DNA of 37,371 nucleotides from Mycoplasmataceae bacterium (GTDB lineage Bacteria; Bacillota_I; Bacilli_A; Mycoplasmatales; Mycoplasmoidaceae), in the NCBI GenBank assembly GCA_031282725.1, contig JAITDD010000021.1, positions 1-37,371 on the forward strand, read 5' to 3'. Shown here in pieces: positions 1 through 32,200 of the stretch. The position numbers and the translations under genes are program-made. How positions within the stretch are numbered: position 1 is the first letter of the stretch; the number at the start of each line of letters is the position of its first letter. Under the pieces are notes generated by a model. The model did no database searches. It saw only the letters and a list, made by a program, of their open reading frames with translations, and had not been told where the DNA came from.

Positions 1-77
1 ACTTTTTCACCAGCCAAGTATCTCTTAACTGTTTTTATTTTAATTTCTGCGGTAACTGATTGGAAGGTGTAACTCAT
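1..77 (-). CDS. Transposase OrfA-like N-terminus (partial, runs off the window)
   Basis: The frame starts at ATG 77-75 on the minus strand and reads MSYTFQSV...KIKTVKRYLAGEK before leaving the window. The spacing of Phe/Tyr, then the helix 'IKTVKRYLAGE', is like the start of IS3/IS150-type OrfA proteins, which bind the inverted repeats through a helix-turn-helix. A purine-rich GGGGGAG lies about 25 bases upstream, rather far for a ribosome binding site. Only 25 residues are visible. The assignment would change if the missing part showed no helix-turn-helix. Confidence 0.4.
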   Translation of the reverse strand, partial: MSYTFQSVTAEIKIKTVKRYLAGEK

Positions 78-113
78 CGTAAATTCGACAAGTACTCCCC
101 CGATTTAGGGACA
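1..113 (-). mobile_element. End of an IS3-like insertion sequence (partial)
   Basis: The window opens inside what looks like an insertion sequence read on the minus strand. Its outer end is taken at 113, where the minus strand begins TGTCCCTAAATCGGGG. A terminal TG is usual for IS3-family inverted repeats. A short open frame starting 36 bases inside this end resembles the N-terminus of an IS3 OrfA. The rest of the element, the other inverted repeat and the target duplication lie outside the window, so the family call rests on one end and about 25 residues. The element stops 30 bases before the rlmN start codon. Confidence 0.45.
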
Positions 114-127
114 TTCTGAATAAAGAA

Positions 128-143: not shown

Positions 144-1181
144 ATGGATAATATTTTTAATTACACTTTAAATGAACTTGAAGACAAACTGGTTTCGTTA
201 GGATTAAAAAAATTTATCGCCTCTCAAATTTATGACTGAATATATAAAAAATATATTAAATCTTTTGAAGTGATGTCAAATTTGTCTTCTGCCACAATAA
301 AAACTTTGAATGAAAATTTCGTTTTTGGGAATCTCAAAATAGCTAAAATTAATAAAAGCGATAAGGATGACACAATCAAATTTTTATATGAACTTTCTGA
401 TAAAAATATTATTGAAATGGCAGTTATTGAATTTGAGTTTGGTTATAGCGGTTGTGTCTCCACTCAAATCGGATGTAATATGGGTTGTAAATTTTGTGCC
501 AGTGGATTAAATAAAAAGAAAAGAAATCTTGAAACTTTCGAAATTGTCCAAGAACTATTAATCGCCAACGAATATTTGGAAAAAAATAATCTTAAAAAAA
601 TGGGTTCTACCTCTTTTATGGGAATAGGAGAACCGATGGATAATTTCGATAATTTAGTACACGCCGTCAAAATAATTCATGAACCAAAAGGAATTAATCT
701 TGGTTGAAGAAATTTTACATTCTCTACATGCGGGGTTGCTAATAAAATTGTTACATTAGCACAAACACTTCCACAATGTAATCTCGCTATTTCTTTACAT
801 GCTCCCAATGACACAATCAGAAACCAAATCATGCCAATAAATCAAGCTTTCAATATTAAAACACTAATTGCTGCCGCCGTTAAATATACCCAAATCGTTA
901 ACCATGACATCACTTTTCAATACACAATGATTAAGGATGTAAATGATTCTGAACTAAATGCGTTAGAATTGGCAAAATTATTACAAAACATCAATTGTCA
1001 TGTTATTCTGATAGAGTACAATCCTGTGAAAGAATTTAGTTTTAAAACATCAAAAAATATTAACAAATTCAAAACAATATTGGAAAAAAATCGAATCAGC
1101 GTTTCTTTAAGGAAAAATAAAGGAAGAAATATTGATGCCGCTTGTGGAACAATGAGAAGTAGTTATGAAGCAAAAAAATAA
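144..1181 (+). CDS. rlmN: RlmN-type radical SAM 23S rRNA/tRNA adenine-C2 methyltransferase, copy 1
   Basis: 345 residues, the usual RlmN length. RlmN methylates C2 of A2503 in 23S rRNA and A37 of some tRNAs, using a [4Fe-4S] cluster, SAM and a methyl-cysteine intermediate. The N-terminal RNA-binding region (KKFIASQIYDWIYKK) is typical. The cluster motif is C111-x3-C115-x2-C118. C104 and C334 match the two catalytic cysteines of the E. coli enzyme (C118 and C355). The motifs MGIGEPMDN and ISLHAPND are present, and one UGA-encoded Trp occurs near residue 188. The ATG at 144 was chosen because the family N-terminus begins there and an IS ends just upstream. The next gene overlaps its end by 17 bases. 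In Bacillus subtilis rlmN also precedes prpC and prkC, which supports the call. Confidence 0.9.
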
Positions 1182-2220
1182 TTTTTTTAATTTTCCATTA
1201 AACGAAATTGAAAAAATATTAGAACTAAACTCATTAAAAAAAAGTTATGCAACAGTTATTTTTAAATCGATATATCAAAAAAATATTACTTCCTTTCTAA
1301 AAATTCCTGAAATAAAAAAAGAGAATGCAAAAATAATTAACCAAATTTTCACTTTAAAAGAATGAATTAAAATCAAAAAAAGCTTTGTTGAAAAAGAAAA
1401 TGGGAAAATCACGAGTATCAAATTTCTTGTTCAAATTGAAGAAAATTGTTTTATTGAAAATGTGCTAATGAATTTTAATTATGGATGAAGTTTATGTGTC
1501 TCCACTCAAATCGGTTGCAATATGGGTTGCAAATTCTGTGCCAGTACATTGAATAAAAAGAAAAGAAATCTTGAAACTTTTGAATTAGTACAACAAGTCC
1601 TTTTAGTTAACAAATATCTACAAAAAAAATTCAATCAAACAATAAAAAATATTGTTATCATGGGTATAGGAGAACCTTTTGATAATTATGAAAATGTCAT
1701 CAATTTCCTTTCCATAATCACTTCTCATTTTTCCATTTCTATACCTGAAAGTAAAATCACTGTTTCAACCTGCGGAATTTGTGATAAAATCGAAAAATTT
1801 GCGACTGACGCTTCCAAAATAAATCTTGCCATTTCTTTTCATGCTCCTAATGATAAAATAAGGAATACTCTCATGCCAATAAATCAAAAATACAATATGC
1901 AAAAATTAATTAAATCAATTAAAAAATATCAACTTTTAAATAAAAATAAGCCGGTAACAATTGAATATTTGTTATTAAAAGGAATTAATGATGACATATC
2001 TAATGCAAAACAATTGTTAACAAAGTTAAAAGGAATTAATTTTTACATAAATCTCATTTCATATAATAAGAATAAGGAGCACAATTTTCTTCCAAGTGAC
2101 AACATTGAATTATTTAAAAAATTTTTCGAAGATAACAGCATCAAAGTCACAATCAGACTGAAAAGAGGGAAGAAAATTAATGCTTCATGCGGACAATTAA
2201 GAAACAAATATGAACTTTAA
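1165..2220 (+). CDS. Second RlmN-family radical SAM methyltransferase (tandem paralogue)
   Basis: 351 residues, starting inside the last codons of copy 1 and overlapping the next gene by 11 bases, so the genes are probably translationally coupled. The catalytic set is complete: C111 and C342 match the methyl-transfer cysteines, and the cluster motif is C118-x3-C122-x2-C125. MGIGEPFDN and ISFHAPND are also present. The N-terminal domain is clearly diverged from copy 1. By contrast, 90 bases around the cluster motif (1495-1584) match 453-542 of copy 1 at 82 positions. Two UGA Trp codons occur. It could be a second RlmN with a changed RNA target, or a Cfr-like C8 methyltransferase; sequence motifs alone do not decide. 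It does not look decayed. Confidence 0.8.
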
Positions 2221-3001
2221 ATATAAAATCTCGGTAGCTAGTGACAAAGGTACAAGAGAGACTAACGAAGATTTTTATGGTATTTTAGAGAATCACAAGG
2301 ATATTCTTCTTGTTCTTTGCGATGGAGTTGGAAGCGAACAAGATAGTGATATCGCTGCCAAAATTACTGTAAAAACTTTTCTTACTAGATTTAAAAAAAG
2401 ATTCCCTTTATTTTTTTGTTTTTCTCGTTTTTATAACAATTGCATCAAAGCTTCTTTAAGAAAATTACGTAAACTTACAAATAAGAATCAAGGAATGGGT
2501 ACCACATTATGCGTTGTTTATATCCATAAAAATATCGCTCAGTGTGCCAATATTGGTGATTCACGAATATATTATTATTCTGCTTCTCAAAAACAATGAT
2601 CGCAAAAAACATTCGATCACAATCTATTGAATAAGATATATGCAAAATATGATGCCCAAAGGAAAAAAAGACCAGATCTTATCAATATCATCAACGAAAA
2701 AGAAAATAGTGAAATTGAATTAAACAAAGAAAGTTTATCATTCTTAACAAGCTGTGTCTCCTCAGATGAAGAAATTACCCCTTCCACCTCTTACTACAAA
2801 ACAATCCCTCAACTTCAACCTAACGACATGTTCTTTATTGTGAGCGATGGAGTTTACCATTTTATTAAACCTGAGAAAATAAATGAACTTATTCAAGCAA
2901 AAACTGTTGAATTTAAAAACTATTCCAAAACAATTATTGAACAAGCAATTCAAAACGGTTCTAATGATAATTTGACATCAATTGTTTTAAAAATTAGGTA
3001 A
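2210..3001 (+). CDS. prpC: PP2C-family Ser/Thr protein phosphatase
   Basis: 263 residues. It removes phosphate from Ser/Thr of proteins in the cytosol and opposes the kinase encoded next. PP2C motifs appear in order: RETNED at residues 16-21, the metal-binding CDGVG with D38, GMGTTL near 98, NIGDSRIY near 117, SDGV with D213 and NDNLTS with D253. These acidic residues bind the two metal ions. One UGA Trp lies near residue 131; reading it as stop would remove the second half of the metal site. The stretch at about 140-185 is a charged family-specific insertion. The start overlaps the end of the second rlmN copy, and the stop shares its last base with the kinase ATG (TAATG). Confidence 0.9.
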
Positions 3002-4260
3002 TGGAAGAAAATAAAAAAAACTTTAAACCTAATGACGTCATTCTAAACCAATACACCGTTGTTAAGATTATCGGTAACGGTGGAATGCATTCTGTTATTT
3101 ATCTAGTTAATGATAAAAGTGTCAATGTTTCTTCCTATTTCGATTACAAACTAAAATTAAAAGCAGTAAAGGTCATTAACAAAACCGACGATATCTCTGA
3201 CAATGAATGAAAAAAATTTGGTGATGAATTTATTACTATGTGAAGATTGAAGAAACTTGAAGCTATCGACAATATCGCTGAAATCTACGATTACGCAGTT
3301 GAGCAAAACACTATCTACATCGTTATGGAATACATCAAAGGGAACTCATTATCATCCATAATCAAGAAGAATGGTTTTCTTACCTTAATTGAAACCTTAT
3401 ATATCTTAGAAAAAATATTAACAGTTTTAGATTCGATGCACAATTTCAAGATTAAAGGAGAAAAAGAGCAAAAAGGCCAACAATGTCGTATCATCCACCG
3501 TGATTTAAAACCTGATAACATTATGCTTTCTACTGATTTAACTGAAATTAAACTAATTGATTTTGGTATCTCTACTTCCATCCTTTTTACGAAAGAAAAA
3601 ACCGAGAACCAGTTAGAAACACAAGAAAATGATATTTATGGAACCTACGCCTATTTAAACCCCCAAGTTTTAGAAATGAAAGGTAAGAACCAAAAGGAAA
3701 AAGAAAAAATCTATCTTCAAATCGGTGTTCAGTTTGATATTTATGCAGTAGGAGTTATTTTTCATGAAATGTTAACAGGAAAAAAACCAATTAATGAAGA
3801 AAATTATGATGATATAAAAACAATATATGATGCAAAAGTTTATGATATCCCTTTCATCTCAAAATACAATCCTGAAATCTACCCCTTCATCGAAAACATG
3901 ATTATCAAAATGCTTAACAGTGCAAAAAGAGAAAGTAAGTATAATGGAAGCGAATATTTTGGTGAAAACCTTCCAATTTATTTAAATGTTTCCGAAATCT
4001 TAAATGATATCAAAAAGGTTAATACATTAATGAAAAATGACAACAACAACAAAGAACTTTACCCACCTTTATTAAAACCTGAATTTGAGGACCGTAATCT
4101 TTTAATTAGAGACTTAGAAATATTTGATTTAAAAAAGATTCGTTTTAAATGATATGAAAAAAAGACTTGATTCGTCATTACCTTATCCATCTCGATTATT
4201 CTTATTCTTATTATCGCTTTTATTTTCACATGATGATTGGAAGATATCAAGCCTAAATAA
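3001..4260 (+). CDS. prkC: Membrane-anchored Ser/Thr protein kinase (PrkC/PknB-like, no PASTA domains)
   Basis: 419 residues. An N-terminal Hanks-type kinase domain carries a glycine loop (IIGNGGMHSVIY), catalytic K57, HRDLKPDN with D168, and DFG with D187. An activation segment follows, with GTYAYLNPQ. Residues about 391-411 form one transmembrane helix, followed by a tail of under ten residues (ending EDIKPK). The kinase therefore lacks the extracellular PASTA repeats that sense cell-wall fragments in Firmicutes, as expected for a wall-less cell. It overlaps the phosphatase stop by one base. In B. subtilis rsgA follows prkC; here the next gene is convergent rplD, so rsgA is absent at this place. 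Several UGA Trp codons occur, including two adjacent ones in the membrane segment. Confidence 0.92.
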
Positions 4261-5059: not shown

Positions 5060-8000
5060 GTGCTTAATTTAATTAAGAACTCCTTTCGTTGTTTAAAGAA
5101 AAATAAACTCATCACGGCCTCGTTGACTTTTTTAATGTTGGTAACTGTTGGACTTTTCACAATCTTCTCTTCTGTTTCTTCTTCTTTATCAAATACTTAT
5201 AGTGATATTGCAAAGAAAAGTAACCTACATGATTTCACTATTAATGAGAACTATGTGTTTTCCTCTCCAAATTATCAATTAGTAGATGAAACCTCAGTCT
5301 TTAGCGTTCATCCATACATTGATGAAGAAGTCACTATTAGTAATTTTCAAAAAGGAATAACTTTTGCTGCTGATAATCCTACTACCGCATATAATCAAGA
5401 CTATAAAGTTTATGGAGCTTTTACCAATATTACAAACACCAATAACTACATAAACTACCTTATCTTTATTCCTAAAATAAATGATTCAAGAGATGAACTT
5501 TTTCAATTTCTTCATTCTAAATATCCATCAGAAGGGTCAAACTCAACATATCTTGCTCACGAATATTCTAAAAACGAAGCAACATTATCTAATTTAATAT
5601 TTCCTGTTTTAAAATTTGATGAAGGAACCACTGCTACTAATGCTTTTTTTAATGGTACGAGTGCAATGAAAGCTTCCGATTTTGCTCAGTATTTAGAAAA
5701 TAAACATGTTCAAGATACTTTGTTAATAAAAGCGAAAGAATTAACTAATTATGTAAAAAAAGTATTCAACCCTTTAAAAAAATTCCTTAATGAAACCTTA
5801 TCTACTGAAATTAGTTTTCGTAAATTCACAAGTTTTGATATTACCAACTCTTCCGATAATTTAAACTACAAGATTATTGAATCCAATCCCAATGATACTA
5901 TTGACAAAATGAACCTTCTTAACTACAAAAACGAACCCGTAGGACAAGAAGCATTTGCTGATGATTATTTTAAACCTTTAGGATATGATGGTGGTGTCGA
6001 AAATATTTATTCAATCTTAACTACCCCAAAAGAAAGTAATGATTCAAAAGCCTTATTAAATAAACACCGTTTAATGCTTTCTGGAAAATGAAGTGATACC
6101 TTTGTTATTACAGATGTGGAAAAACAAGCCTGTATCGATGCTAAAACTGATGAAGAATTAAAAGCGGCACTTAAAGTTATTAAACCTACTGGAGGAGCAT
6201 ATGATAAAATTTTTAATTCATCAGCAACTTTCACCGATGTTTTTGAAAAAGGATACAAATATACAATGCAAGGAGCCGGAACTACCCCTATAACTTGCGT
6301 TATTGAAAATTGAACTTCCTTATTCGCTGTTGTTAATCCCCAATTTCTTCATTCTCACAAACTTTCCCCCATCTCTAAAAAAGACTTAGATGAAAAGTTT
6401 AATCCTGAAAAACTTAAAATGTTTACTACCACCGAGATTTTGAAAGAGTTAGATGATTTCGTAAAAACAAATCCAAAAAACACAATTTCTATCGATAAAG
6501 GTATTCCTTTTGTTATTGTTGGAAGTGGTATTACCCCAGATTTTGTTTATCCTTGTATGAGTTTTGAAAGTATTAATCCTAATGAACAAAAAGATGCCAT
6601 TATTTACACGAATCGTGTTGGATATAAAAGAGTAATTGATGCCTATAATTCCAACCCAGAAGAAACTTATTATGTTTGCAAATTCCTTCATTCAAATAAT
6701 CATCAAGCAATCTTAAACTTAATAAATGAATTCGGAGTGAAGAATATGTCTTATCCAACAAGCAGTAATATTGCCTTTTTAAGCGATGATATTTCTAATA
6801 ACCTAAATACCGCAGCATTACGAATCTCCTTTATTCCGAACCTTATTAAAAATATTGATATTATCTGTTTCTCTTTAACAATGGCCATTATTGCCTTAGC
6901 CATTATTGTTTCCATTGTTGTTGTTAATAAATTCATCAATATCAATAAACAAAGTCTGGGTATCTTACTTGCTAATGGTATTTCTAAGAAAAAGATCATT
7001 GCTTCTTTACAACCCTTCGCTTTTATCCCTTGTCTTATCGGATGTGCCATTGGATACTTTATTGGTCTTTTCTTACAAAACCCGGCCATTTCACTTCTTC
7101 ACGGATATTGGACTCTTCCTACTGCCTTTATTACTTTCTCCCCTCTTGTTTTCATTTTCTCCTTATTAATCCCTTTCTTCTTTATCTCTCTTGCGTGTAT
7201 TATTATCGGATGCATCAGATTAAAAACAAATGTTGTTACATTAATGAAGAATGGAAGTGAATATAAAGTAAATCTAATTGCCAAGATTGCGAAAAAACCA
7301 TTCTCTCGTTTTAATATTATTTTCCGATTCAGAACTAATCTAGCATTATCTTCCTTAGGAAAACTAACAATTTTAACAATTTTAACAGGATTATCAATTT
7401 CCGTTTTTACTTTCGCTATCAACACTTATGGTAAAATAAAAACCAATATCGATACTTCCTTAGTTTCTAAAAACTATTCTTTTGCTGTTGATTTGTACAC
7501 CCCTACAAGACAAGGTGGTCAATATACCCCTGTTCCTTCCACTTATTGGGGAAATTGTGGTATTATTAACACCGAATCTGAAGGAAAGAATTATTTCCCA
7601 GGAATTTTTAAAACTCATGATGATGATATTTTCGATAATTCTCTAGTTAATATTTCCAAGGATTATATTTATCAAGCTTCTTTAACTTCTTTTAATGTGG
7701 CTTCTTTGAAAGAAGATGGAGTTAGTCAAGGAGGAGCACATTTTAACACAGTTATTCCTTGTTTGAGTGATAACTTTGCTCAAATGGCTGATTTACAATA
7801 TCTAAAAAATAAATCACTAGAAAAAACAGGAACCGATTTTAACATTGGGACATTAGGTATCACATCCAATCCTTGGAATATCGTTATCTCCTTAGCTCCA
7901 GATAATCAAATTAATAAAATGAATCAGAATGCCGAAAACCTTTTCAATTATGCAGGTTATAAAGCTTATCCGGAAATGGTGAGTAATGTTTATGGTTTTG

Positions 8001-10030
8001 AAAGCAATAGTTCTTTAGTATTAACTCAATCTAAAATCGGTGGCTATACCATTCCAACAGGAAAAACTAGTCCATATCCCGCTGCTGACTCTAACGAATG
8101 AGCCACAATATTAACTGATAGTGGTACAAAACAAAATTTTCTTATTCCTTTATATAAATATGAAGGACAATGACATTATGGTTCTTTACCTGCAAACAAA
8201 GTAATTAATCCAGCAAATATCCCTAACCCAGAAAATACCATTGCAGAAATAAGCAATTTCGATAAAACGAAAATCGAAGATATTAAGTTTGTCCCTTGAA
8301 CCGAAAAATGTGCACCTTCTACTTATTTAACTTCTTTTTTCTTAAAACTTCTTGTTCTTATGCACTCTGATTTGAAAATGGCGAAAAAAACCTCACAATT
8401 ATACGATGTTCCTACTTCAGAATTACAAACCCCTTCTTCCGATCTTAACTATGTTTTAAACTACGACACTGTCCCTTTACATGACGATGACGAAACTTAT
8501 ACCTATGTTTTAGCTAATAGTGCAAAAGGTGAGAAAGTTAATTTAGATAATAATACAAAAATCTTAGGTATAAAAAAAGATACCAAATTCATCGAATTAA
8601 AAGATGAAGATGGAAATTCGATAAACAAAAAATTGTACGATTACGAGCCTGCCAAAATCCACAACAACCAATCTTTTATTCCTATTGTCCTTAACAAATT
8701 TGCGGCAAAGAAATATGGACTTAGCGAAGGAGATAAAATAAAAATTAGTGTCCTAAACCATATCTCTCGATTAGATAAAAAGATACTTAGCGATGATAGC
8801 GAAATAGATGTTATTTTAGAAGTAAAAGCAATATCTAACTCTACAATAGGACAAGAATTCTTTATCGACCAAGATGCAGCAAACTTTATTGTTGGATTGA
8901 AAAGCAAATTAGCAATAGCTATTAAAAATATAGACAACACTTACAAATTAAAAGTACCCTCCAATTATTACATCGATTCGAATGATTTTACTGACTCCAC
9001 CGATGTTGCTTTTTTAGCTCAAGCTCTTCCTACAGTTTTTGGAAATAATGGAAAAGCAAACGACTGAGGAAAATATGAAGCTTCTTCCACTAGCCGAGAC
9101 CCTAAAAGATCTTTATGAAATACCTCCTTATTGGATGATAATATTGAAGAAGATGGAATCAGTTCCAAACCTAACCTTGCCACAGGCAAAGTTCTCTCAG
9201 GTTACAATGTTACCCCTTTTGGATTTAATGGAGTATTTACGAAACATTCCGATGGTTCTTCTATTCTTGCAAATTCTATTTCCTTATATTCCCCAAGTGG
9301 TATTTATATGGCTAACCAATTCTTTGATTCAACAACTTCCAGAAAAGCTTTAAAATATGGTTCTAACGCAATGATTGCTGTTCAAATTTCAGGATTATGA
9401 AAAAACCCTTCTTCTGGAAAATCAACCGTTATTGGCGAAAAAGTTCATAAATTATGACAAGATAATATAGCTCTTGAAACCAGAAAAGCCTTTATTGATG
9501 ATGAAACTGTAGACCAATTAATCTTTGAATTAAAAAAGATCTATTCTGAATCTCAATTTATCAATCTTGTCAACTCAGCTAGTGACAAAACTGCTAGTGT
9601 GTTAATCTATAAGAATATGAGTGACACCATCGATGAAATCGAAGCTATTGTTTTAGCCATAATCTGTATCGCTACCATCCTTATCGTTTTCATGATTACA
9701 TTAATGATTATTGATGATACAAAAGGAATTAATGCGGTAATGAACGCTTTAGGATACCGAGACAAAAGAAACTTAGCGAACGTCTTATCTATTTATGCTC
9801 CAGTATTCATTCTCTCACTTCTTCTTTCTTTTCCAATCACGTTCCTCGCTAACACTTTCTTCTCAGCTTTGCTATTTAATTCTTTAAGCATTTACATTAA
9901 TATCGGTCTTAATTGAATTTCTGTTTTAGAATCTATCCTTTCCGTCTCAGTAGTATTCATCGCTTCCGCGGGTCTGGGTTATTACAATTTAAAACGAACT
10001 AAGATCGTTGAAAGAATTAAACAAATATAA
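5060..10030 (+). CDS. Giant FtsX/MacB-type ABC transporter permease (MG468-like)
   Basis: 1656 residues with eight predicted membrane helices in two sets of four. Set one has a helix at about 18-40 and three more at about 600-715. Set two has a helix at about 766-790 and three more at about 1527-1645. Each set is the FtsX/MacB arrangement of one helix, a large outside domain and three helices. The outside domains are very large here (about 560 and 730 residues). The start is GTG (5060), the first in-frame initiator after a TATAAT box. The frame is continuous only if UGA is Trp. The ATPase gene follows after 11 bases. M. genitalium has a similar pair, MG468 and MG467. Such transporters usually act on membrane lipids or lipoproteins, or transmit force to outside proteins; the substrate here is unknown. 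Confidence 0.8.
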
Positions 10031-10041
10031 TAAATTAAGCT

Positions 10042-11136
10042 ATGGATACTAAACAATTAATCACTAATAACCGTGCCCTTGTCTCTAAATTAAACGTCAA
10101 TTCTTTTAATCAAATTGTTAAACAAGCAAAGAAAAATAAAGATACTTCCGCTTTTATCTCCTTTATTGAAAATATCCAAACTTCTTTAAATGCAAAAGAA
10201 CCATTTGCTTCTTCCTCTTGTTTAAGAAAAATGGTATCTTCTTTTAAAAGACAAGAAAAAATGCAAAAGCTTCTTCTTTCAGGAATTATTAAAGATAAAA
10301 CAAAACAACAAAAACTTAAAAAAGCACTTGATGCCGAAAAACAATATTTTAAAATTCTTCCAATAGATTGTACAAACAAATTTATCTCAAAATGCGTTAA
10401 ACAATTAGAAAAAATTCAAATAAACGAAATTAAAAACCCTGACCCTTCTGATGTCGTTTATTTAGAAAATGTCACAAAATACTACTACAACAACAGTATC
10501 TCCACCAGAGTTTTAGATAACGTCTCTTTAAAAATAAAAGAAGGAACCTTTGTTGTTATTTTAGGACCTAGTGGTAGTGGGAAAACAACCCTTTTAAACC
10601 TTATCTCTGGAATGGATATCCCAAGCTGTGGACAAGTTATTGTTTGTAACGAAAACCTAACTAATATGAGCTCTTCCAAACTAACAGATTTCCGTTGTCG
10701 TAACATCTCATATGTTTTCCAACAATATGGTTTGCTTCCTAACCTTACCGTAAAAGAGAATGTTGAAATTGGAGCTAATTTACAAAAAAATCCAAACTTC
10801 AAACTAGACATTGATGAGGTTTTAAAATCTGTAGGATTGGAAGAAAATAAAAAAAAGATGCCCTATCAACTTTCAGGAGGGCAACAACAAAGAGCTGCTA
10901 TTGCAAGAAGTATTGCAAAAAACCCTAAAATCCTTTTCGGAGATGAGCCTACAGGAGCTGTTGATCAAAAAAACTCTGACAATATCATAAAACTATTCAA
11001 AGATATTAATAAAAAATACAAAACAACAGTTATTATCGTTACCCACAACCCTGACATTGCGAAAATTGCGGATATGGTAATTAATGTTAATGATGGTAAA
11101 TTGAACATCTCCTATAATACCCCTTCTTCTAAATAA
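10042..11136 (+). CDS. ABC transporter ATP-binding protein (MG467/MacB-LolD-like)
   Basis: 364 residues. The first 135 residues are a charged, helical extension not found in plain LolD-type ATPases. An ABC domain follows: Walker A GPSGSGKT at 175-182, Q-loop VFQQYGLLPNLTV, signature LSGGQQQR at 277-284, Walker B ILFGDEP with D301 and E302, and switch H335. The FQQ-LLP-LTV spacing and GDEPTGAVD are typical of the MacB/LolD/FtsE group, matching the FtsX-type permease directly upstream, so the two probably form one transporter. A TATAAT at 10026-10031 overlaps the upstream stop and ends 10 nt before this ATG, so an internal promoter is possible. Confidence 0.88.
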   Translation: MDTKQLITNNRALVSKLNVNSFNQIVKQAKKNKDTSAFISFIENIQTSLNAKEPFASSSCLRKMVSSFKRQEKMQKLLLSGIIKDKTKQQKLKKALDAEKQYFKILPIDCTNKFISKCVKQLEKIQINEIKNPDPSDVVYLENVTKYYYNNSISTRVLDNVSLKIKEGTFVVILGPSGSGKTTLLNLISGMDIPSCGQVIVCNENLTNMSSSKLTDFRCRNISYVFQQYGLLPNLTVKENVEIGANLQKNPNFKLDIDEVLKSVGLEENKKKMPYQLSGGQQQRAAIARSIAKNPKILFGDEPTGAVDQKNSDNIIKLFKDINKKYKTTVIIVTHNPDIAKIADMVINVNDGKLNISYNTPSSK

Positions 11137-19999: not shown

Positions 20000-21037
20000 A
20001 TGAAAAAGATCCATCTGCTTTCTTTATTATTACCAATAGTTTCTTTATCTCCTATTTTTCTTACACTAACTTCGTGTTCTAATCCGATGTCTAAAATCTA
20101 TTTGACTAATCTTGGAGTTACTAGTGAAGAAGGTGGAATTTCTGGCGCTGGAAAAAAATTCGATCAATTAGATAGAAAAGTTGATTTTTGAAACATCTTT
20201 AAAGGAAACACGAAAATTAACAATGGAAACTATGTTGTTTTTTTATGCGACTCAGGATCTTCCACAAGCCCCTACACGGGAAGTACTACTACCCCTTGAG
20301 CTTCTTCTTCCTTTAACGTTAACGAATCATATAAATTTTTCAACAATAGTCTAAACTCTAACGCTCAAACTATTCAAGATATTTCTCTTAATCCTTTAAA
20401 AACTCTTGAAATTCCTCAAACTAAAAAAGATGACGACACAACTACAGCTGACGAAAACCATTCCAATTTTGTTAAGTCTATTAAAGAATGAGAAGCTTCT
20501 AAACATAACAATGATACAGATGCTAAGAAAAACTGAGAAACATCTGACAATTACGAATTACAATTCTTCTCTTACATTCTTCCAGCAACTTTGCATTCCT
20601 ATGTAAATGGTGCGGACTCTTCTTCTTATGATTCTAAAATACAATATCCAAATATGTCAACTAATCACGATTTTAAATTCGCTGCAAGTGTATTTTCTAA
20701 ATGAACCGACAATGACTTCTGCAACATTGTTTACGATTGACATAATAACCTTAATCATTTGAAACAAGACCAAAAAGAATGAACTAATTGAGAAAAACAT
20801 CACAATCCAAAAGAATACATCAATAATACCCCTGAAGCTGTAAATTATCGTGCCTTATTAACTGAAATGAATAGACTTATGCCTGTTAATATGAAAGATA
20901 AAGTAGATGGTAAAGCAGGTTCTTCCAATATGATCACTATTTATTACAGAAAAGGAAAAATGAACAAAATCGATTTAACCTCTAATGGAAAGACTATTAC
21001 TGACGAACTTAAAACTATCTATACTAAAGGAAAATAA
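20000..21037 (+). CDS. Lipoprotein, 345 residues, upstream of opp
   Basis: A lipoprotein signal peptide is visible: MKKIHLL, a hydrophobic core, and the lipobox LTSC with C26 as the predicted lipidated residue. The mature part is rich in Ser, Thr, Asn, Asp and Trp, the latter mostly UGA (about eight codons). It contains EWTNWEKHHNPKEYINN near 255. I do not recognise a family. The opp gene set follows in the same direction after 22 bases, but OppA has its own TATAAT, so co-transcription is uncertain. It may be a species-specific surface protein or an accessory subunit of the peptide importer. Confidence 0.78.
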
Positions 21038-21046
21038 GGGTTGATA

Positions 21047-21052
21047 TATAAT
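21047..21052 (+). promoter_or_regulatory. TATAAT -10 box of the opp operon
   Basis: TATAAT followed by 7 nt and the ATG of OppA at 21060, directly after the stop of the preceding lipoprotein gene. Confidence 0.55.
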
Positions 21053-21059
21053 ATCATAG

Positions 21060-24000
21060 ATGAAAATTCATCAACTTTTATTACCTTTTTCTTTTCTTCC
21101 GCTTCTATTATCAAGTTGCGGCCAGAATGATATTTTTTCTAAAATAAAAAACAGAGTTATCGATCCTTCTTATCTTGAAATCCAAAATGATATGGGAGGA
21201 AGTTTTAATACTTTTAATCACTTAAACGACTGATCTAGTGGTAACACAATCATTAATAATTCCTTAAACACTCCCTTCACTTATAAAGATAGATTCGAAT
21301 CTTTTCAAGGAGGATTGATCATTGATGAAAATGATCAAAAACAAAGGAATGATTTAACTTATTCCGACAAAGCTGGATGATTCCCTTCTAATGACCCCGC
21401 CCCTTCTTATTTCGACGCTGAAAGTAAAAAATTCACTTCTATTTTTCGAGATGGAACCGGAACTAGTCATTTCACTACTCAGTCAAATACTGGTTCCGAC
21501 AATATTAAAAGAGTAAAATGAACCTCCTACGATGGAGCTAATGTTCACCCAATTTTCCCAACCCAATTTAATCCAGATTTAACAAAAGAATATTATGCAT
21601 GTCCTCAAGATCTTATCAACGAAATAATCATCGCTGTCGATCCTTACAACTTTAGTTCTGATGCTGCCTCCTTCTGAACTGATGAAGTAATGGGATATGG
21701 AGGAGATGTCGTTAGTTTCTTACAACAAATTTGTGGAATTAATGGAACCGACTCACCTTTTTATAACGCTAATTTTGATGCTTACAGAATGAACAAAGAA
21801 GACTCAATCAAATTAACAGATCAACAAAAAATAGTAAAAACCGCCTTTGCTCAAATTAACCTAGCTATCTTAACTACTGCCTTAATTGATGGTACTTTCC
21901 AAGTTTACAATCCTGTTGATAAAACTCTAACTCATTTACGATTATCTAATGGCGAAGGTAGTCCTAAATATGACAAAATTAAAATATATCAATTAGATTC
22001 TTCCTTCACTCCTTCTTTAACTGATTACACCATTCCTAATCCAACCAATTTATCCGATGAAAAACAAAAAGCCGATTTTGGTTTGGATACTGATTTCTCA
22101 AATTATCAATTATGTAACTTCATTAAAATCGGAATAGGAAAAGATTCATATGAAAGCCAAAACAACATGGCAATCCCTTCTGTTAATGTTTCAAACATCG
22201 ACCCTTTAAACAACCCTTGATTTATTCAATTAGATTTAGGCGATGTGCCAAAACCTTATTTATGCGAAATCTTTGACTCGTCTTTTATTGGTATTCTTCC
22301 AGATAGAGCCATTGACTTTCTTCACCCTACAACAAGCGGAAATAATTATGGTTCATTAGTAAACTATAAAGACTCCTTATTTAATGGGCCTTATGCAATT
22401 AAAAGGTACATAATTGATCAATACATCGATTTAGCTTTAAAAGATGATTATGCTCTTTTATCCCCAAACACTATTAATGGTTCAATTAAAAAAATCCGAT
22501 TCTGATTGTATAAAAACAAAACAGGAGCTGACGAAGGATATTTATTCCAATCTAACAACCTTAGTTATTTCTATGTAACCCCTTCCAATCCAAGCGCTTG
22601 AGATCAATTTATCGGAGATGATTATGATAAACCAAAGTTCGATTACATGTCCTACACTTTAAACTCTGACTCTTTATTCTCCTTCATTCTTTTCTACAAC
22701 TATTTGTATGGTACCAGCTTAGAAAACTGTGACTTTAATAATGAAAAAAATGCTTGTTTCCTTCTTCCATCTGTCCGAGCATACATCTCTTTCATGTTAA
22801 ACAAATCCTGATATGGTTATTGTTTTACTAGACATAGTGATGATACTGTCGGAAATGTCTTCGATAAGCTAAAATACAATAAAGATACAGATGGTTTCTC
22901 TTTCTCTATTGCAGGAACTAATTTCACAGTACGAGGAGATGCTTATCAAGATATTGCTGCGGACCAAATAATGACTGATGGAACTGGTTTTTTTAAAAAA
23001 GCTATGTCTTTAATTAATGATGCTAATACTGAGATGGCAAAACCTACTGCAGCTCAATTAAATAGTTATGCTCAATATTACCATTCTCATGCTCATGCTG
23101 GAAAGAAAGATTGAACCCGATTTAACTTCTTTATTGGAATGAATGCTTGAATTGATTGAACAACAGAATCCATTTCTCTTCCTACCGGTTCTGACTTAGA
23201 TTCCTTTAAATCTTTTATGTCTGCCTTTAAAGATTGATGTGATGCTGGATTTGGAGAAAGCGCTGACGCTTCAAAAAAAATAGATGCCGTTGATAAAGCT
23301 GTAAGAGCGTTAAACACTAAAGTTTCTTCTGATTTGAACAATGTATTTGGAAAAAACCAAGTTAATCCCGATTTTTTAGTTTCCGGAAGCACATTAATGA
23401 CAACTTTACCTTACACAAGAAAAATGATCGAATCTATCCAAAATTACCAATTCGCCAATGGTTCTTACAACACTAATGCTCCAATTCAATTCTCTTTAAA
23501 TATTTCTGTATCTGACACTGATTTTAAAACTAAACGAAACTCAAAACAAATCTCTTCCATTCTTAATGGATGATCCCCTGACTATTCCGATCCTTTAAAC
23601 ACATTGATCACTTACAATTATGGCGGGTTCTATGATCAAATAATTATGAATATTGCTAACTTAAAAAAAATATATGCTGCAAATGAATCCTCTTCCGCAA
23701 AAAAACCAATCAACGAAAAACTTAAACCTTATTATCAAAAATTATTCACTATAATGGATAAGTTTAATGAAGCTTTAGAGTTGGCAAAAAGAGAAACTAA
23801 TGAAGAAAATGATGGTGTTAAAGACGCTAGATACAAAGCTTTCTCCTCCGCTGAATGTGACGTTTTATACAAATACAATATTCTTTGTCCTTTGGATATG
23901 AAAGGTGCTAGTGAATACCCTATTGTTACATACATAAATAATGAATCAAGAAAATATTCTAACCAATCTAACAACTTCTTCATTTACGATCAATCTAAAC

Positions 24001-24242
24001 AATTAAGAACAACGCATGAAAACCACATCCAAACAATATTCCGTGACTTCATTGTTGAAAATGAAAATAAAGCTGCTAGTCTTACTCCTGAAAATTTCTC
24101 AAAATTCGTAAATGGCGATGGTGCAACAAAACTTCCTGCATGAAACCCTAAATGAGGAACCGCTCCCACATGAGCTGATTTTGCCGCTAAATATTCTGGG
24201 GAAGGGGGTAAAGTTAAGTCAACATTTAACTGAATTTATTAA
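21060..24242 (+). CDS. oppA: OppA-like oligopeptide-binding lipoprotein
   Basis: 1060 residues. The signal peptide ends in LLSSC, giving lipidated C20. The middle carries a region typical of SBP_bac_5 peptide-binding proteins: GILPDRAIDFLHP near 415, then NGPYAIKRYIIDQYIDLALK near 445 and IKKIRFW near 480. These correspond to the usual 'TGPYKLKEW...I.L..N.DYW' and '...I.FR' pattern. Mycoplasma OppA proteins are about this long, roughly twice the size of E. coli OppA. No Walker A motif of the kind reported for M. hominis OppA is apparent. The position directly before oppB, with TAATG overlap, is the strongest evidence. About twenty UGA Trp codons occur in frame. Confidence 0.8.
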
Positions 24243-25435
24243 TGACAAAAACCAATTCTTTACAAGATATTCTTGCTAATTTACAAAAAAATACTCCCAA
24301 CAAACTTGTTTATTCGTCAAAACTTTCTTCTTTACACACAAAAGAATTCTTTACTAAACATTCTACTTTTTCATATTCTTTAAAAAGAATCTTAATCTCT
24401 CTTATTTGTTTATTTATTGGAATTACTTTAATCTTCCTTCTTGTTCGTTACAGTCTAGAAAAAATGGGAATTAATGCCTTTATGCCAGAAGCCAGTGATA
24501 AAGCGGGATGAAGTGATGACCAAAAAAATAATTACTACCACTATTTATTACGATTAAACAATTTAGATGGGAACATATTCACTCAAATCTTCCACTTTTG
24601 ATACAATATCATTCCTTTCATTCCAAAACGTGTCCTTCTTCCTACTACTGAAATTGATATCCAAACAGGAAAACTTTTAGAAATTTACACAACTAAATAT
24701 GTTTATTTCGGAGTAACAATGACTAATCTTTTAGGAGGACAACAATTAGATGTTGCTAAACTTTTTAATGATGCTATCCCTTATTCTTTTGTCTATGGAA
24801 TTATTGTTATCGCCTTCTCCTATTTTGTCGGTATCCCTTTAGGAATTATTGCTGCGATTAAAAGTAAAAAAATGTTAGGAAAAGCCGTCAACTCCTTATC
24901 CTTATTTATCTACTCCATCCCTTCTGTTATCATCATCATGATTATTTTTGTTATCCCTGTTGGTTTTTTCCACCAAAGTTCCCTTTTTGCATCCGACTCC
25001 TTCTTCCCTAAATTCTGACCCGCTTTAACAATGTGTATTCTTTTCGTCCCTGTAAACATCATTATGACCAGAAAATACTTTATTGAAGAGAAGGAAAAAG
25101 AGTATGTTGTTTTCGCTTACAGTAAAGGATTAACAACTTCTTCCATTTTCTTTAAACACATTTTCCGAAATACTTGTGTTGTAATCTTGCGAACTCTGCC
25201 TATCGATTTAGGACTTGCTATCTTTGGCTTTAGTGTAATTACTGAAACTCAATGAAATATCCCTGGTGTTGGTCATTTATTATCCTCTTCTTTGACTCCC
25301 TCTATTATTGACCCGATGATTGTTTTAACTTACATTACCCTTTCCGGTGTTATTGTTACCTTTGCCTCCTTATTTTCTGACCTTATTATGATATTTTTAG
25401 ATCCTCGTATTAAACTGAAAGGAGATGCAAAATAA
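24242..25435 (+). CDS. oppB: Oligopeptide ABC transporter permease OppB
   Basis: 397 residues. A cytosolic extension of about 45 residues is followed by a first helix (LKRILISLICLFIGITLIFLLVRY), a loop of about 100 residues on the outer side, and five further helices from about residue 180. The loop EYVVFAYSKGLTTSSIFFKHIFRN at about 285-308 is the EAA contact site for the ATPases, and LGLAIFGFSVITETQWNIPGVGHLL is the usual OppB/DppB ending motif with UGA as Trp. The start overlaps the oppA stop in TAATG. OppC begins just after the stop, downstream of AAAGGAG. Confidence 0.9.
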
Positions 25436-25439
25436 AAAT

Positions 25440-26495
25440 ATGAACAAAAAAACAGTTAATAAAACTAATAATTACGAGATTGTAGAACAAGAAAAGTTTA
25501 AGAATGATTTCTATCAACAAAACCACATCAGTTACGACAAAATAGATAAGGAGTTATTCCTTCCCAACACTAAAAAATCCCAGCCTGATGTTTTTTTAAA
25601 CTATAAAAAATATTCTTACTGAACCAATGTTTCCAAATCTTTAATCACTTCTCCTTTATTCATTATCTCTCTTCTTATCCTTGTGGCAGTATTTGTGTCC
25701 ATGTTTGTTTTCTCTTTCAATAAAGAAGCCCAACCTTCCATCGGAAACCCAGGCACTTCCCCAGCTTTTTCTTCCAAAGAACACTGATTTGGTTTAGGTT
25801 TTATTGGTGAAGATTATTGGAATGAAGTTTGAATTGGAACAAGAATGACAACCCTTTTAACTATTGCTATTGTCGCTTTCCAATTAGTTATCGGTCTTTT
25901 TATCGGTTCAATTTGAGGTTATTTTAAAAAGTCTGATTTATTCTTCATTAACGTAATCAATATTCTTAACCTAGCCCCAACTTTAATCTTTATCCTTTTG
26001 ATCATCACAATCATGGGTGCTCATTTTATGCCAATTGTGATAGCTATTTCCATCCAATCCTGAATCGGTTTTGCCATTGCTACAAGAGTTCAGATTATGA
26101 TAATAAGAAATAATGATTACAATGTAATGAGTAATGTTTTAGGAACAAACCCTTTTCGAATTATGGTTAAAAATATCATCCCTAAAATTGCTCCTGTTAT
26201 TGTTTCTATTGGTGCTTTTGCTATCCCAGATTCCATAAGTTGAGACACCTCCTTATCTTACTTAAACTTCGGTTTCGTTGATGGAATTCATACTACTTCC
26301 TTAGGTTATTTATTACAATACACACTAAACTCTAATAAATGAATCCAATTCCCTAACCTTATCATTTTCCCAACCCTTATCCTTGTTATCATCTCCTTCT
26401 CTTTCTTCCTTCTATGTCACAGAATTTCTGACTCCTTAAATCCAAAAAACCACAACAAAGTATACTCCGCTATCACAAGGAGGAGAAGAAAATAA
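25440..26495 (+). CDS. oppC: Oligopeptide ABC transporter permease OppC
   Basis: 351 residues from the ATG at 25440. An N-terminal charged segment of about 65 residues precedes the first helix (LFIISLLILVAVFVSMFVFSF). DPP/OPP-type helices and the EAA loop follow (NVMSNVLGTNPFRIMVKNIIPKIAP at about 228-252), then SISWDTSLSYLNFGF. The nearest Shine-Dalgarno, AAAGGAG at 25418-25424, ends 15 nt before this ATG and abuts an alternative in-frame ATG at 25425, so the later start was chosen; the difference is five residues. The stop overlaps oppD in TAATG. The last codons (TRRRRK) double as the AGGAGG ribosome binding site of oppD. Confidence 0.88.
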
Positions 26496-27862
26496 TGAGT
26501 CAAAAAGTGTTGTTATCTGTTAAAAATCTAAATCTTGGTTTTATCTATGGTTCTTCTTTGGTAAATATAGTGAAGAATGTTTCCTTTGATTTGCACGAAA
26601 AAGAGACTTTGGTTATCATTGGAGAAAGTGGTAGTGGAAAATCGGTTCTTTCTAAATCCTTGGGAAATATGAATGAAAAAAATGCTATTATTACCGAAGG
26701 TTCCATTGAATATTTTTCTAATAACAAACAATTCAACCTACGTGATATCTATTCCTCTTACATTGAACATTCTTATGTGAAAAAAATAAAAAAGATATAC
26801 AAAAATAAACTAAAAAATATTAATAACCAAATTGAAGAGGTAAAACAATTTGCTGCCTTGGAAATAAAATACGAGAATATGATTAAAAACCCTAAATTTC
26901 AAAAAAACAAAAAATTAGAAAAGAAATTGGAGAAAGTAAAAGCAAATCTAATCCAAATCAATAAAGATATTCACAATGTTTCTTTCTTAGAAAAAGAATA
27001 TGAAAACATTAACCTTGAATTTCTAAGAATAATGGAAAGCATCAAAAAATATAGCCACACTACCTCTTCCAAACTGACTCGAAGTATTAGAGGAAAAGAA
27101 ATTGCCTACATCTTCCAAGACCCATCCACTGCCCTAAACCCCCTTTTAACTATTGGATACCAAATTAAGGAAGTTTTAAAACTCCACTGCAATCTAAGAG
27201 GAAAAGCGGCCAATAATGAAGTTATCAACCTTTTAACTAAAGTTGGAATCAATGACCCTAAAAAAGCGATGAAAATGTTGCCAAGTGAATACTCAGGTGG
27301 AATGAGACAAAGAATTGTTATCGCTATCGCTTTGGCTTCCAAACCTAAAATCTTAATCGCCGACGAACCTACTACTGCCTTAGATGTTACTGTCCAAAAG
27401 CAAATCATTGAATTACTCCTTTATCTTAAAAAAGAAATGAACCTATCTATGATCTTTATTACTCACGATCTAGGACTTGCTTCTATAATCGCTGATAATA
27501 TTAATGTAATGTATAGTGGTTCTTTTATCGAAAAAGGAAGTAAAAAAGATATCTTCTTAAATCCTCTTCACCCTTACACTTGAGCCTTAATCGCTTCTAT
27601 TCCTCAATTCAGTGAAAAAAATACTTCCCTTTTCAGTTTGGAAGGTTCTCCTTTTCCTCCTGAAATGGATATCAAATTTGACTCTTTCGCTCCAAGAAAC
27701 AATTATGCTTTAAAAGTTGATTTCTTCTATTCTGCTCCAATGTTTCAAATCTCCCCAACCCACTTTGTTAAATCGTGATTATACTCGCCTAATGCTACAC
27801 CTATACAACCACCTGAAAACGTTTTAAATGCTATCGAATGTTTAAAGGAGGTAATCAAATAA
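26495..27862 (+). CDS. oppD: Oligopeptide ABC transporter ATPase OppD
   Basis: 455 residues. Walker A GESGSGKSV lies at 43-51, the Q-loop FQDPSTALNPL at about 207 (Q208), the signature SGGMRQR from 267, Walker B ILIADEP with D290 and E291, and the switch histidine at 324 (ITHDLG). The C-terminal part has HPYTWALIASIP, typical of OppD/DppD. Walker A and the Q-loop are about 160 residues apart, roughly 100 more than in E. coli OppD. The extra part is a Lys/Glu-rich coiled-coil-like insertion (about 85-190). A strong AGGAGGAG lies before the ATG, inside the end of oppC. The stop overlaps the oppF start. Confidence 0.92.
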
Positions 27863-29229
27863 TGAAAAAACCAATTCTTCAAGTTCGTAATCTTGCCGTC
27901 TCTTTTAAAAAGAATGCCAAATACACCAAAGCTTTAAAAGAAGTTAGTTTCGATTTATACGAGAATGAAATTTTAGGTATTATTGGAGAAAGTGGTAGTG
28001 GGAAAACAACAATCGCCAAAGCTGTTATGAGACTTTTATCTTCCAAAGGTCAAATAGTTTTCGAAAATAAACAAATTAATAAAGATAATGTTAACTTTCT
28101 GAAAGATATCAAAAAAGCGATTAGTGAGGAAGAAAGTGCAAAATTCGCATTAATCAGATTAACAAAATACCTTATCAAAGAAACTGATACTAAAATAAAT
28201 GAAGAAAAACTTGAACGATACATAAATGATATAGCCTTATTCCTTTACTCCTGTCACACCACCTTAAAAGTCTTATCTTCCAACATAGATTACTTCAAAA
28301 TTAATATCGATGTTTCATCCTTCCAAAATTTAATTCTTGACTCCTTATCTGAATTGTCTAAAATCATTCCTTTATACAAAAATGTTGAAACATTCAAAAA
28401 AACCAATCCTTTACTTCTTCAAATAATCTCTAATATCTCCTCTTCCCTTATTTCCTTTTCTTCCATAAAACTCCTTTTAAAACAAAAAGACAACTTCAAA
28501 AAACCAACCTTTGAAAAAAATAAAAAACACCACCTTTTAAAAAAAGACTTACAAATCATTATGCAAGACCCTTCCACTAGTTTAAACGAAAGAATGAAAG
28601 TAAATGATATCATCGCTGAAGGTTTAATTAATTTCAAAAAACAAATCTTGCCAAAAAATAAAAACAACAAAGATACAAAAAAACTAATTCATAACTATGT
28701 AAAAAACACTCTATCCTTTGTAGGACTTTCTGAAAATGTTTTAAACAAATACCCTTTTGAATTATCTGGAGGACAAAAACAAAGAGTTAGTATTGCTCGT
28801 GGTGTTATCATTCAGCCGAAACTTCTTGTGGCAGATGAACCTATTTCCTCCCTAGATGTAACAATAAGAGCCCAAATCCTTAATATCTTAAAACAAATAA
28901 AAGAAAAATCCAAACTCTCCATCCTTTTCATCTCCCATGATCTTTCTACTATCCGATATTTCTGTGACCGAGTTATTGTTGTTTATAAAGGAAATATTGT
29001 CGAAATAGCTTCCAGCGACGAACTTTATAAAAACCCAATCCACCCTTACACAAAAAAGCTTCTTTCATCTACTTGTATCAAAGACAAAGACTGCAAAATC
29101 TTTAATGAAAAAGAGACAAAATATGATGACTCTGCACAAAAATACATTTTCTTCCCCCGAGAGTTAATCGAATTCAGTCCTAATCATTTTGTTTTCTGCA
29201 ATAAAGACGAGTATCAGAAATGAAAATAA
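27862..29229 (+). CDS. oppF: Oligopeptide ABC transporter ATPase OppF
   Basis: 455 residues from the ATG at 27862, which follows AAAGGAGGT by 9 nt. An earlier in-frame ATG at 27838 lies before that site and is less likely. Walker A GESGSGKTT is at 42-50, the Q-loop MQDPSTSLNERM has Q235, the signature LSGGQKQR starts at 301, Walker B LLVADEP has D325, and the switch motif is ISHDLS. HPYTKKLLSS closes the family pattern. About 190 residues separate Walker A and the Q-loop, about 130 more than usual, again a helical insertion, but unlike that of OppD in sequence. It is the last gene of the opp operon; a UGA Trp is the second-last codon. Confidence 0.92.
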
Positions 29230-29262: not shown

Positions 29263-32200
29263 ATGCGTTTTGGACATAAAAAAGCCCTTGTCTGTATTTC
29301 AGGTTTTGCTTTTATCTCCCTTATTTCTTTTTCTCAATTTTTTGTCTCTACTAATCCTTTAACTTCTTCTACAAACTTAAACAAAGAAAATGCTGCTAAA
29401 CCACTTGTTGGAGCTAGCGGTATAGATCCCGTAGAATACAATACTTGTGCTTTAAGTGCGATGTCTGCCAGGGACAAGGTAATTGATGGAGAAGAAAATC
29501 CAACAACAAGAACACTTGCTCGATTAGAATCTCCCACATTGGCTGGCATCACCTATCCTGTTTCTGTTAGTGAAATTGATAATATATATGGATGGTCTGC
29601 ATTTGACCCTTCCCAAAAAGAATTAAAATTCCGTAACTGTTCAGAAACGCTTGAAGATTATATACTTTACAAGCAATTAAGTCAAATAAAACCTGGTTCT
29701 GTACAATGACAAGGCGATCCAACATCAATTGCTAAACCTATCACTATGATTGATTTCAATAATGATTCACTAGTCCCAACAAATCTAAAAAAACCTGGAT
29801 TTTATAGAGATACAACTGATTTTTTAAAAGAAACTGACAATAACCTACAAGGTATTACAAAAGTGATAGTAACCGATGGAGCGGAAGATAAAGAAAATTT
29901 TCACAATTATACTTCCGATAAAACCGAATTCACTTCCGCGTTAACCGAAATCGGATATTTTTGTTTTTCTGGATTAGCTAGGATTTTCAACACTTCTTCC
30001 TTTAAATTTCACGATTACTATACTGATACAAATTTTTATAAAACCCCCGCTCCAGCTTTTGCTAATTTAGAAAGTGTTGTTTTCAAAGATGTTGATGAAT
30101 ATCTGATAGGTCATCAAGGCGATCTTGCTTATAAAATAAGAGCTAAAGTATCTTTAAAAGTAATCCATTCAGGAGCTTTTTCAGATGCGACAAAGCTTGA
30201 AACAGTTGATTTCGGTTCTTCTAATCAAATAGCTTACATTGATGAAATGGGGTGACCTTCATTAGCACAAACAGAAGATTATAAAAAAGACCCTGAAAAT
30301 ACTCCTCGACCTTATATTTCAGAAGATGGTGCTGATTATTCAGGTACTGTTGGAATATTTGAAAATGATGTCAAATTATCTAAAGTAAATCTTTATCAAC
30401 AACATTATGGTCTATACAACACCGACCCTAATAAACCCCAATACCATTCTTATCTAAAAACTATTCCTGGCAATTTTTTAAAAAACTGTAAAAGTCTGAC
30501 TTCTTTTAATGCTGATGGTCCAGATGACGCAAAAAATGCAATCTATATACCAAACTCAGTAACCTCTATTGGAAAAGAAGCTTTCAGTGGTATTAATTCT
30601 GGTATTACCAAAGTTTATTTTCCAGAGCCCAACATAGACGAAAATCAATACGGTGTTGCTTCTTGTGCTTCCGATATATTTGGTTATTCCCCTTCTCCCA
30701 TCACTGACATCTACCTTCCAGAATTAAACCCCTCCTCTAACTTTCTTCTTGGATTAGTAAACAGTGTTGATAATGCCTACAACCCAGACAAAAGCCACCA
30801 ACTTACTTTTCATGTTCCCTACAATTTTAATGAAAAACTAGAAGTTGATAAAAAAGGTTTACCTGAATATACTGCGGCTGATTCCATATATGCAAAATAT
30901 CTTCGAAATTCAATCCTTAAAACCAACATTTCTTTCGAATTCTCATCTCCTAAATCTTTCGTTATCACAGAACCTAAAAGCGGAATTAAAAAGATTTATG
31001 GGAATGCTGCCAAAGATACTTCAGCCAAAAATTATGTCTACTTCAATAATTTCGATGGAAAATGAACTGATGATAAAGCATCAAAATATGCCTGAGAAAT
31101 TTCAACCACCCCTAAAAATTCCAAATTTACTAATGAACAATTTTATCAACAATTTAGTGCAGAAGGACCTAGTAGTATCGATATAAATATAGACCCAAAT
31201 GCTAATAAGAACGATTATTATGTCTCTAAAACCGGAAGATTCTATTATTGTCCATCCTATTATGTGAAAAATAACATTACCTCCGCCAATATTTCATTAA
31301 ATTTCAAAGCTCCCGCAATAAATGGTAACCGTTCTACAACCACCTTTAAAATTCCCGTCTGGGCCGATGATCCTTCCAAAACTACAATACAGTATTTACA
31401 ATATGGTGAGACATCAACAACTACTACACCCACCGTCTCTTCGATAGTTAAAAAAATATCCTCCAACACTAGTTTTACTTCTAAATTTGATAAAGTTATT
31501 TTCAATCCTAACTATCCGACAGCAGTTTTAGATAAAGTAACTAGTGATGATCTTTTAGCAACCTTCTCTGTCACTCCTGTCGCCACTTATCTATCAGCAA
31601 AAAATGTTGAAGTACCCCTTACTTATTCTTCCTCAATAGATGGTAAAACAACAACCTACAATTTCTATCCAGTAGAAGATCAAAATTCTGTTATTTTCAC
31701 AGCTACTGTTAAATTTGTTGATGAAGTGCCTGGAGAACCTAGTACTACTCCTGCCCGTTTTGAATGTGAAGTTTTTCCTTCTGCCTCTTGCTCTTTCGCT
31801 AATGCTTGTGGGAAATATACTGTTAAATTTGTTTTAAAAAATAATATTACTCTAACAGAAAAAGCATCCGCACCTTATACAATGCAATTTTGACAAAGAA
31901 CCGGAATATATACTTCTAATACTAACAAACCAAATAATAGCGTAAGTATCACACCTTATATTGGTGTTTCAGGAGGGGGTGCATTCACTAGTGCCAACAA
32001 ATCTGCCGCTGTAACAGATACATATCATTATGCATATGTTAATGATTTTTATCCTGATTTTCCAACTAACTTTCCAAACACAAATGTAGTTCCAACAAAT
32101 ACCCCTACTTTTACCCCTCCTTCCGAACAAAAGTGAAAACCTGATAGTGCTTCCAATTATTCTACATTAAACACTTCCATTGCTACCGATCCTACTAAAG

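Follow-up and report, generated by a model that had tools for sequence, protein, structure and literature searches.

RlmN of Escherichia coli is encoded by one gene copy and has a dual specificity, forming m2A2503 in 23S rRNA and m2A37 in tRNA. In Arabidopsis, which has several RlmN paralogues (RLMNL1, RLMNL2 and RLMNL3), these substrates are divided, with RLMNL1 serving chloroplast rRNA and RLMNL2 serving chloroplast tRNA (PMC10838301). The structure of the rRNA-only enzyme Cfr with its substrate showed that Q28 touches U2522, that M95 and N288 hold A2503, that the phosphate of U2504 is held by S151 and S153, and that H286 stacks on G2502 (PMC13001441). Here we describe a pair of bacterial RlmN paralogues for which a split between rRNA and tRNA is proposed from sequence. 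Unlike the RLMNL genes, which are nuclear and depend on compartment targeting, these genes overlap, belong to a single bacterial compartment, and appear to have undergone gene conversion.

The pair lies at one end of the window, i.e., the whole stretch of 37,371 nucleotides analysed, which comes from a Mycoplasmataceae bacterium (genome G000) whose closest named relatives are Mycoplasmataceae bins that we take, from their isolate codes, to be from the termite gut. The first gene, copy A (144-1181, plus strand), encodes 345 amino acids, and the second, copy B (1165-2220, plus strand), encodes 351. Both frames are open only under genetic code 4, in which TGA is read as tryptophan (two such codons in each), and are broken under code 11. 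The 3' end of A overlaps the start of B by 17 bases (1165-1181, plus strand; 14 bases in the relative G017), through which the two genes are likely to be translationally coupled, and they are presumably co-transcribed. A and B open an rlmN-prpC-prkC gene cluster: prpC, encoding a PP2C phosphatase (2210-3001, plus strand), overlaps the end of B and is a conserved neighbour of the resident rlmN, and prkC, encoding a Ser/Thr kinase (3001-4260, plus strand), is the next gene. The locus of B is also found elsewhere in the family and order. No tandem rlmN in mollicutes was reported in the literature that we searched, which included few subscription journals, and the search for viral relatives gave a single distant match (28% identity). 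The window, as far as shown, takes up all of contig 6 of the genome bin (876 kb), which is 75% complete, so that a third rlmN copy is possible in the missing part.

Upstream of A, positions 1-118 (minus strand) hold the 5' end of an insertion sequence encoding a transposase N-terminus, which ends 25 bases before the A start codon and within which the contig ends. These bases are repeated elsewhere in the genome at 100% and 96% identity, and the longer genomic copy has a minus-strand gene for an rve-type transposase; the assignment to the IS3 family is our own reading. An alternative A start at TTG 60 was ruled out, since it falls in this insertion-sequence DNA. The element reads away from rlmN and may have removed or supplied the A promoter; a promoter and terminator scan gave nothing above shuffled sequences. 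Farther along the window, a very large FtsX-like permease (1656 amino acids) is followed by an ABC ATPase (5060-11136), probably forming one exporter, and an apparent oligopeptide transport gene cluster (20000-29229) adjoins a probable surface protein of 1888 amino acids that carries a hydrophobic segment close to the C-terminal end (29263-34929).

Both copies score above the curated cut-off (290 bits) of the RlmN equivalog model TIGR00048, A with 337.9 and B with 316.2 bits. In A, the CxxxCxxC cluster cysteines are C111, C115 and C118, and the catalytic pair is C104 and C334 (E. coli C118 and C355); the five corresponding residues in B are C118, C122 and C125, with C111 and C342. The predicted models have the whole RlmN fold (pLDDT 92.9 and 92.2 for the two copies), and the nearest solved structures are those of RlmN (TM 0.93 for A, 0.88-0.90 for B), with Cfr structures well behind (TM 0.77 and 0.72). 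The earlier note's description of two intact paralogues head to tail, both retaining the cluster motif and the catalytic cysteines, is thereby borne out. Fold, cluster motif, catalytic cysteines and family score, all common to E. coli RlmN, suggest that A and B are working RlmN-type enzymes, and both would transfer a methyl group via a methylated cysteine to C2 of adenosine. Apart from being two rather than one, they differ from the E. coli enzyme in that A is changed at N307, Q357 and L358 (E. coli numbering) and B lacks conserved N-domain residues.

Several of the changes in A lie in its substrate pocket. At columns with at least 90% conservation among single-copy RlmN, eleven departures are fixed in the clade of A genes (V93A, M95I, Y99F, V157S, I191F, E259Q, Y286H, N288I, E325N, Q336T and L337M); all of them lie in the barrel or the C-terminal part, and the N-terminal domain has none. 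N288, Q336 and L337, the counterparts of the three E. coli residues just named, do not vary in 156 other RlmN (including that of E. coli), in Cfr(A) or in Cfr(D); for V157 and E259, conservation among RlmN is 99%. At the pocket residues equivalent to E. coli V174, E278, N307, Q357 and L358, B keeps all five whereas A is changed at all five. The N-terminal RNA-binding domain of A (PF21016; 150-323, plus strand) retains Q28, W32, Y34, F41 and M44 and matches RlmN_N with 49.1 bits. Four departures (V157S, Y286H, N288I/T and M95I) fall on positions of Cfr that contact rRNA, and A155 is a serine like Cfr S151. The sequence thus suggests a pocket altered where the target nucleotide and its neighbours are met, with partial convergence on Cfr. 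Given that some of the altered residues are kept by every RlmN and Cfr examined, A might be inactive or act elsewhere.

The convergence raises the question of whether A could be a C8 methyltransferase of the Cfr type, protecting the ribosome against peptidyl transferase antibiotics, and the earlier note had mentioned another position on A2503 as a possible new target. A carries the Cfr residues at the positions of S151, S153 and H286; however, it lacks N288 and the CGQL sequence, both of which Cfr keeps, and it branches among mollicute RlmN (in a tree built without any Cfr). Its best score against the NCBIfam Cfr models, whose cut-offs are 468-550 bits, is 215.8 bits (cut-off of the CfrAB model, 530), that of B is 189.8 bits, and both are under half of any cut-off. 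Of 18 positions that, by our computation, separate RlmN from Cfr(A)/Cfr(D), A has the Cfr state at two and B at none. Scores and positions together rule out Cfr membership for either copy and do not favour activity at C8, which we consider exceedingly improbable for A; because Cfr-like activity is unsupported, the antibiotic relevance of the pair is speculative.

B presents the complementary pattern. Its barrel is canonical, with a CGQL C-terminus and no clade-wide departures, and its N-terminal domain (1165-1353, plus strand) has lost Q28 (99% conserved; V31 in B), W32 (99%; S35) and M44 (89%; I47). The Pfam model RlmN_N (PF21016) finds no match in B even at E<=10; helices are predicted in this region, and the domain is predicted to be a changed sequence on a kept fold. 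Between G000 and G017, A has a pN/pS of 0.26 outside the N-domain and 0.47 within it, and B has 0.33 outside and 0.82 within, values that are rough given near saturation of synonymous sites and the poor alignment of the two B N-domains. The N-domain values for pairs of single-copy species are 0.27-0.47, with the exception of G010/G031 (0.93), in which the conserved residues are still there. It appears, therefore, that the B N-domain evolves almost neutrally and that the barrel is under purifying selection, on which ground B as a pseudogene was rejected. The earlier note had suspected a changed target in the second copy; a pocket change was found, but in the first, and it is the N-terminal domain that the second has lost.

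This pattern recurs in relatives. RlmN_N matches A in G000, G017, G008 and G004 with 47-50 bits and the A-type copy of G014 with 39.5 bits, and at E<=10 it matches none of the five partner copies in these genomes, whose barrels score as well as or better than that of A. It is present in the resident copy of G009, in which A is frameshifted, and in the single-copy species G002, G012, G030, G013 and G028. Across 36 species, the resident retains 0-2 of the five N-domain residues in each of the five genomes in which A is intact, and 4-5 in every one of the remaining 31. All the independent contrasts taken on the rpoB tree point the same way, although with n=3 the best possible p is 0.25.

Elsewhere in the family, the only RlmN homologues of two species of genus g11, G068 (L074:1510-2514) and G045 (L075:1431-2411), lie beside prpC and prkC in open frames that match RlmN_N (41.6 and 48.7 bits), have no Radical_SAM match, and lack the cluster motif and the catalytic cysteine pattern. 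A mirror image of B, they are either decaying genes or a dead RlmN retained to bind RNA. No RlmN match was found in genera g2, g5, g6 and most of g7, which fits repeated loss in mollicutes.

To account for these patterns, we tentatively propose, with confidence a little short of an even chance, that A and B have partitioned the dual rRNA/tRNA function of RlmN, a split for which RLMNL1 and RLMNL2 offer a tested plant precedent. A would have arisen by an old duplication, at the base of one subclade of the genus or close to it, and where A persists, the ancestral specificity for 23S A2503 and tRNA A37 would have been split: A would have kept its RNA-binding N-domain while changing in the residues by which the target nucleotide and those next to it are held, and the resident B would have kept the canonical pocket while its N-domain was released from constraint. 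In the lineage of the window, the copies would have come to lie in one overlapping cluster and to swap the cluster-motif segment by gene conversion. This partition explains both the decay of the partner N-domain only where A is present and the changed pocket of A. Both substrate classes remain in A-bearing relatives: the A2503 context of 23S rRNA is unchanged in them, which speaks against a changed 23S target (rRNA genes were not found in the 75% complete assembly of G000 itself), and A37 is present in tRNA Glu, Asp, Gln, His and Arg(ACG) of G004. As to which copy serves which RNA, we would guess that A serves 23S rRNA and B tRNA, because A keeps the N-domain and shares its residues at the S151, S153 and H286 positions with the rRNA-only Cfr. 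The guess is a weak one, because both RNAs are contacted through the RlmN N-domain in known structures.

The same pocket could instead mean that A has gained a new function, methylating another adenosine (a different RNA, tRNA set or atom), while the ancestral targets are left to B alone, its N-domain being relaxed. The changes on target-holding residues, three of them invariant throughout the comparison set, and the purifying selection on A fit such a gain; however, it leaves unexplained why the resident N-domain has decayed only where A is present, and we regard it as doubtful. It is also conceivable that the two proteins form one complex, in which the RNA-binding N-domain would come from A and the canonical active site from B. 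Such a heteromer would suit the complementary loss of constraint, the overlap of the genes in one cluster, and the occurrence of an RlmN relative with the N-domain alone elsewhere in the family. However, RlmN works as a monomer, the genes are unlinked in G008 and G004, and A retains its own cluster cysteines and barrel constraint, which together make a shared enzyme very improbable.

The partition reading supposes that A is the added gene. In single-copy species of the genus, rlmN mostly lies directly before prpC, often with prkC too. In the two-copy genomes G008 and G004, it is the B-like gene that sits at the prpC locus, with the A-like gene elsewhere and unlinked. The added paralogue is therefore A, and B is the resident of the prpC-prkC locus; the extra gene is the first copy rather than the second, for which the earlier note had considered a new target. 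The tandem arrangement occurs only in G000 and G017; in G014, neither copy can be placed at prpC (for one of them owing to a contig end), and the assignment of the resident is ambiguous. In G008 and G009, A has a common neighbour, which we read as DegV-like, and this suggests inheritance by descent.

A second copy is unusual, in keeping with the earlier note's remark that most bacteria have one rlmN. One copy is found in 30 of 36 genomes of the genus. A phylum sample of 120 gave RlmN matches in 64 genomes besides G000, and a second strong match turned up in only one of these. In G223, of the same class, a second RlmN-like gene (G223:C17:114548-115393) scores 277 bits and matches the model from position 54, and its N-domain may also be atypical. 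In the RlmN tree, five A sequences form one clade with support of 100/100 (97/92 for six, including G014). The rpoB tree places all six two-copy genomes in one subclade of 11 species (SH-aLRT 98), the only one in which A is found and in which the single-copy G012, G030, G013, G028 and G002 are interspersed among them. One gain followed by several losses is the simplest reading, and transfer of A between species of the subclade is not excluded. Grouping the four tandem copies as one clade was rejected (AU test, p-AU 4e-5), which rules out a recent tandem duplication and with it the very recent duplicate that the earlier note had named as its own refutation; an origin of A inside the subclade was not rejected (p-AU 0.14). 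We dropped the long branches of B as a stand-alone argument, because the whole subclade evolves fast genome-wide (rpoB branches of 1.25-1.31 for G004 and G008).

The two copies are most alike around the cluster motif. Over 31 codons from the Cys codon, A and B are identical at 83 of 93 DNA positions, compared with 511 of 936 elsewhere, closely matching the 82 of 90 identities noted earlier and there put down to gene conversion or strong constraint. Over the motif, A and B are 89% identical within G000 and 88% within G017, whereas the identity of each copy to its orthologue is lower (80% and 78%); outside it the order is reversed (55% and 53% within genomes, 74% and 64% between orthologues). 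In a four-way comparison of the G000 and G017 pairs, the ratio of sites grouping by genome to sites grouping by orthologue is 9:1 within the block, compared with 16:131 outside it (Fisher p 1.5e-7). With no block preset, a scan located a tract at 464-538 of A (plus strand), flanked by orthologue-grouping sites at 451 and 539 and reached by none of 20,000 shuffles; the same comparison places its counterpart in B at 1506-1580 (plus strand). In the non-tandem G008, G004 and G014 the motif is not homogenised, with a partial echo in G009 (77/93). Of the two causes, then, strong constraint is disfavoured by the site test and the non-tandem genomes, and the block is best explained by gene conversion, at least once after the G000 and G017 lineages parted.

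The repeated loss of A means that its function is dispensable, and it could be argued that A, with its odd active site, or B, with its decayed N-domain, is nearly functionless and being lost as in most sister species. A is missing in the five single-copy species of the subclade, and in G009 (L042:3998-5031) it carries a one-base frameshift between the equivalents of E91 and M92, with the remainder open and a canonical resident copy; a young pseudogene is likelier here than an assembly error. The two g11 species keep only a dead RlmN, and mollicutes in general shed the gene, which is retained in only four of those surveyed (PMC4014445). However, the frames and catalytic cysteines of both copies are intact in the window, the low pN/pS outside the N-domain has been sustained over a long divergence, and it is the functional core that has undergone conversion. 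We therefore consider ordinary decay distinctly unlikely.

Two RlmN copies are an odd finding in a lineage known for shedding RlmN, and the complementary divergence of A and B is the new result here. What makes RlmN and Cfr select rRNA or tRNA, and one atom of an adenosine over another, still calls for an explanation, and swaps of regions between E. coli RlmN and Cfr mostly killed activity (PMC4689488). Paralogues separated by evolution, with intact single-copy sister species as controls, yield short lists of candidate residues. It is possible, though we would lean against it, that duplication was followed, in several lineages in parallel, by a split of the dual-specificity enzyme in which one copy stayed constrained in its RNA-binding domain and the other in its canonical target pocket, and that A may read a nucleotide context unlike that of known RlmN and Cfr.
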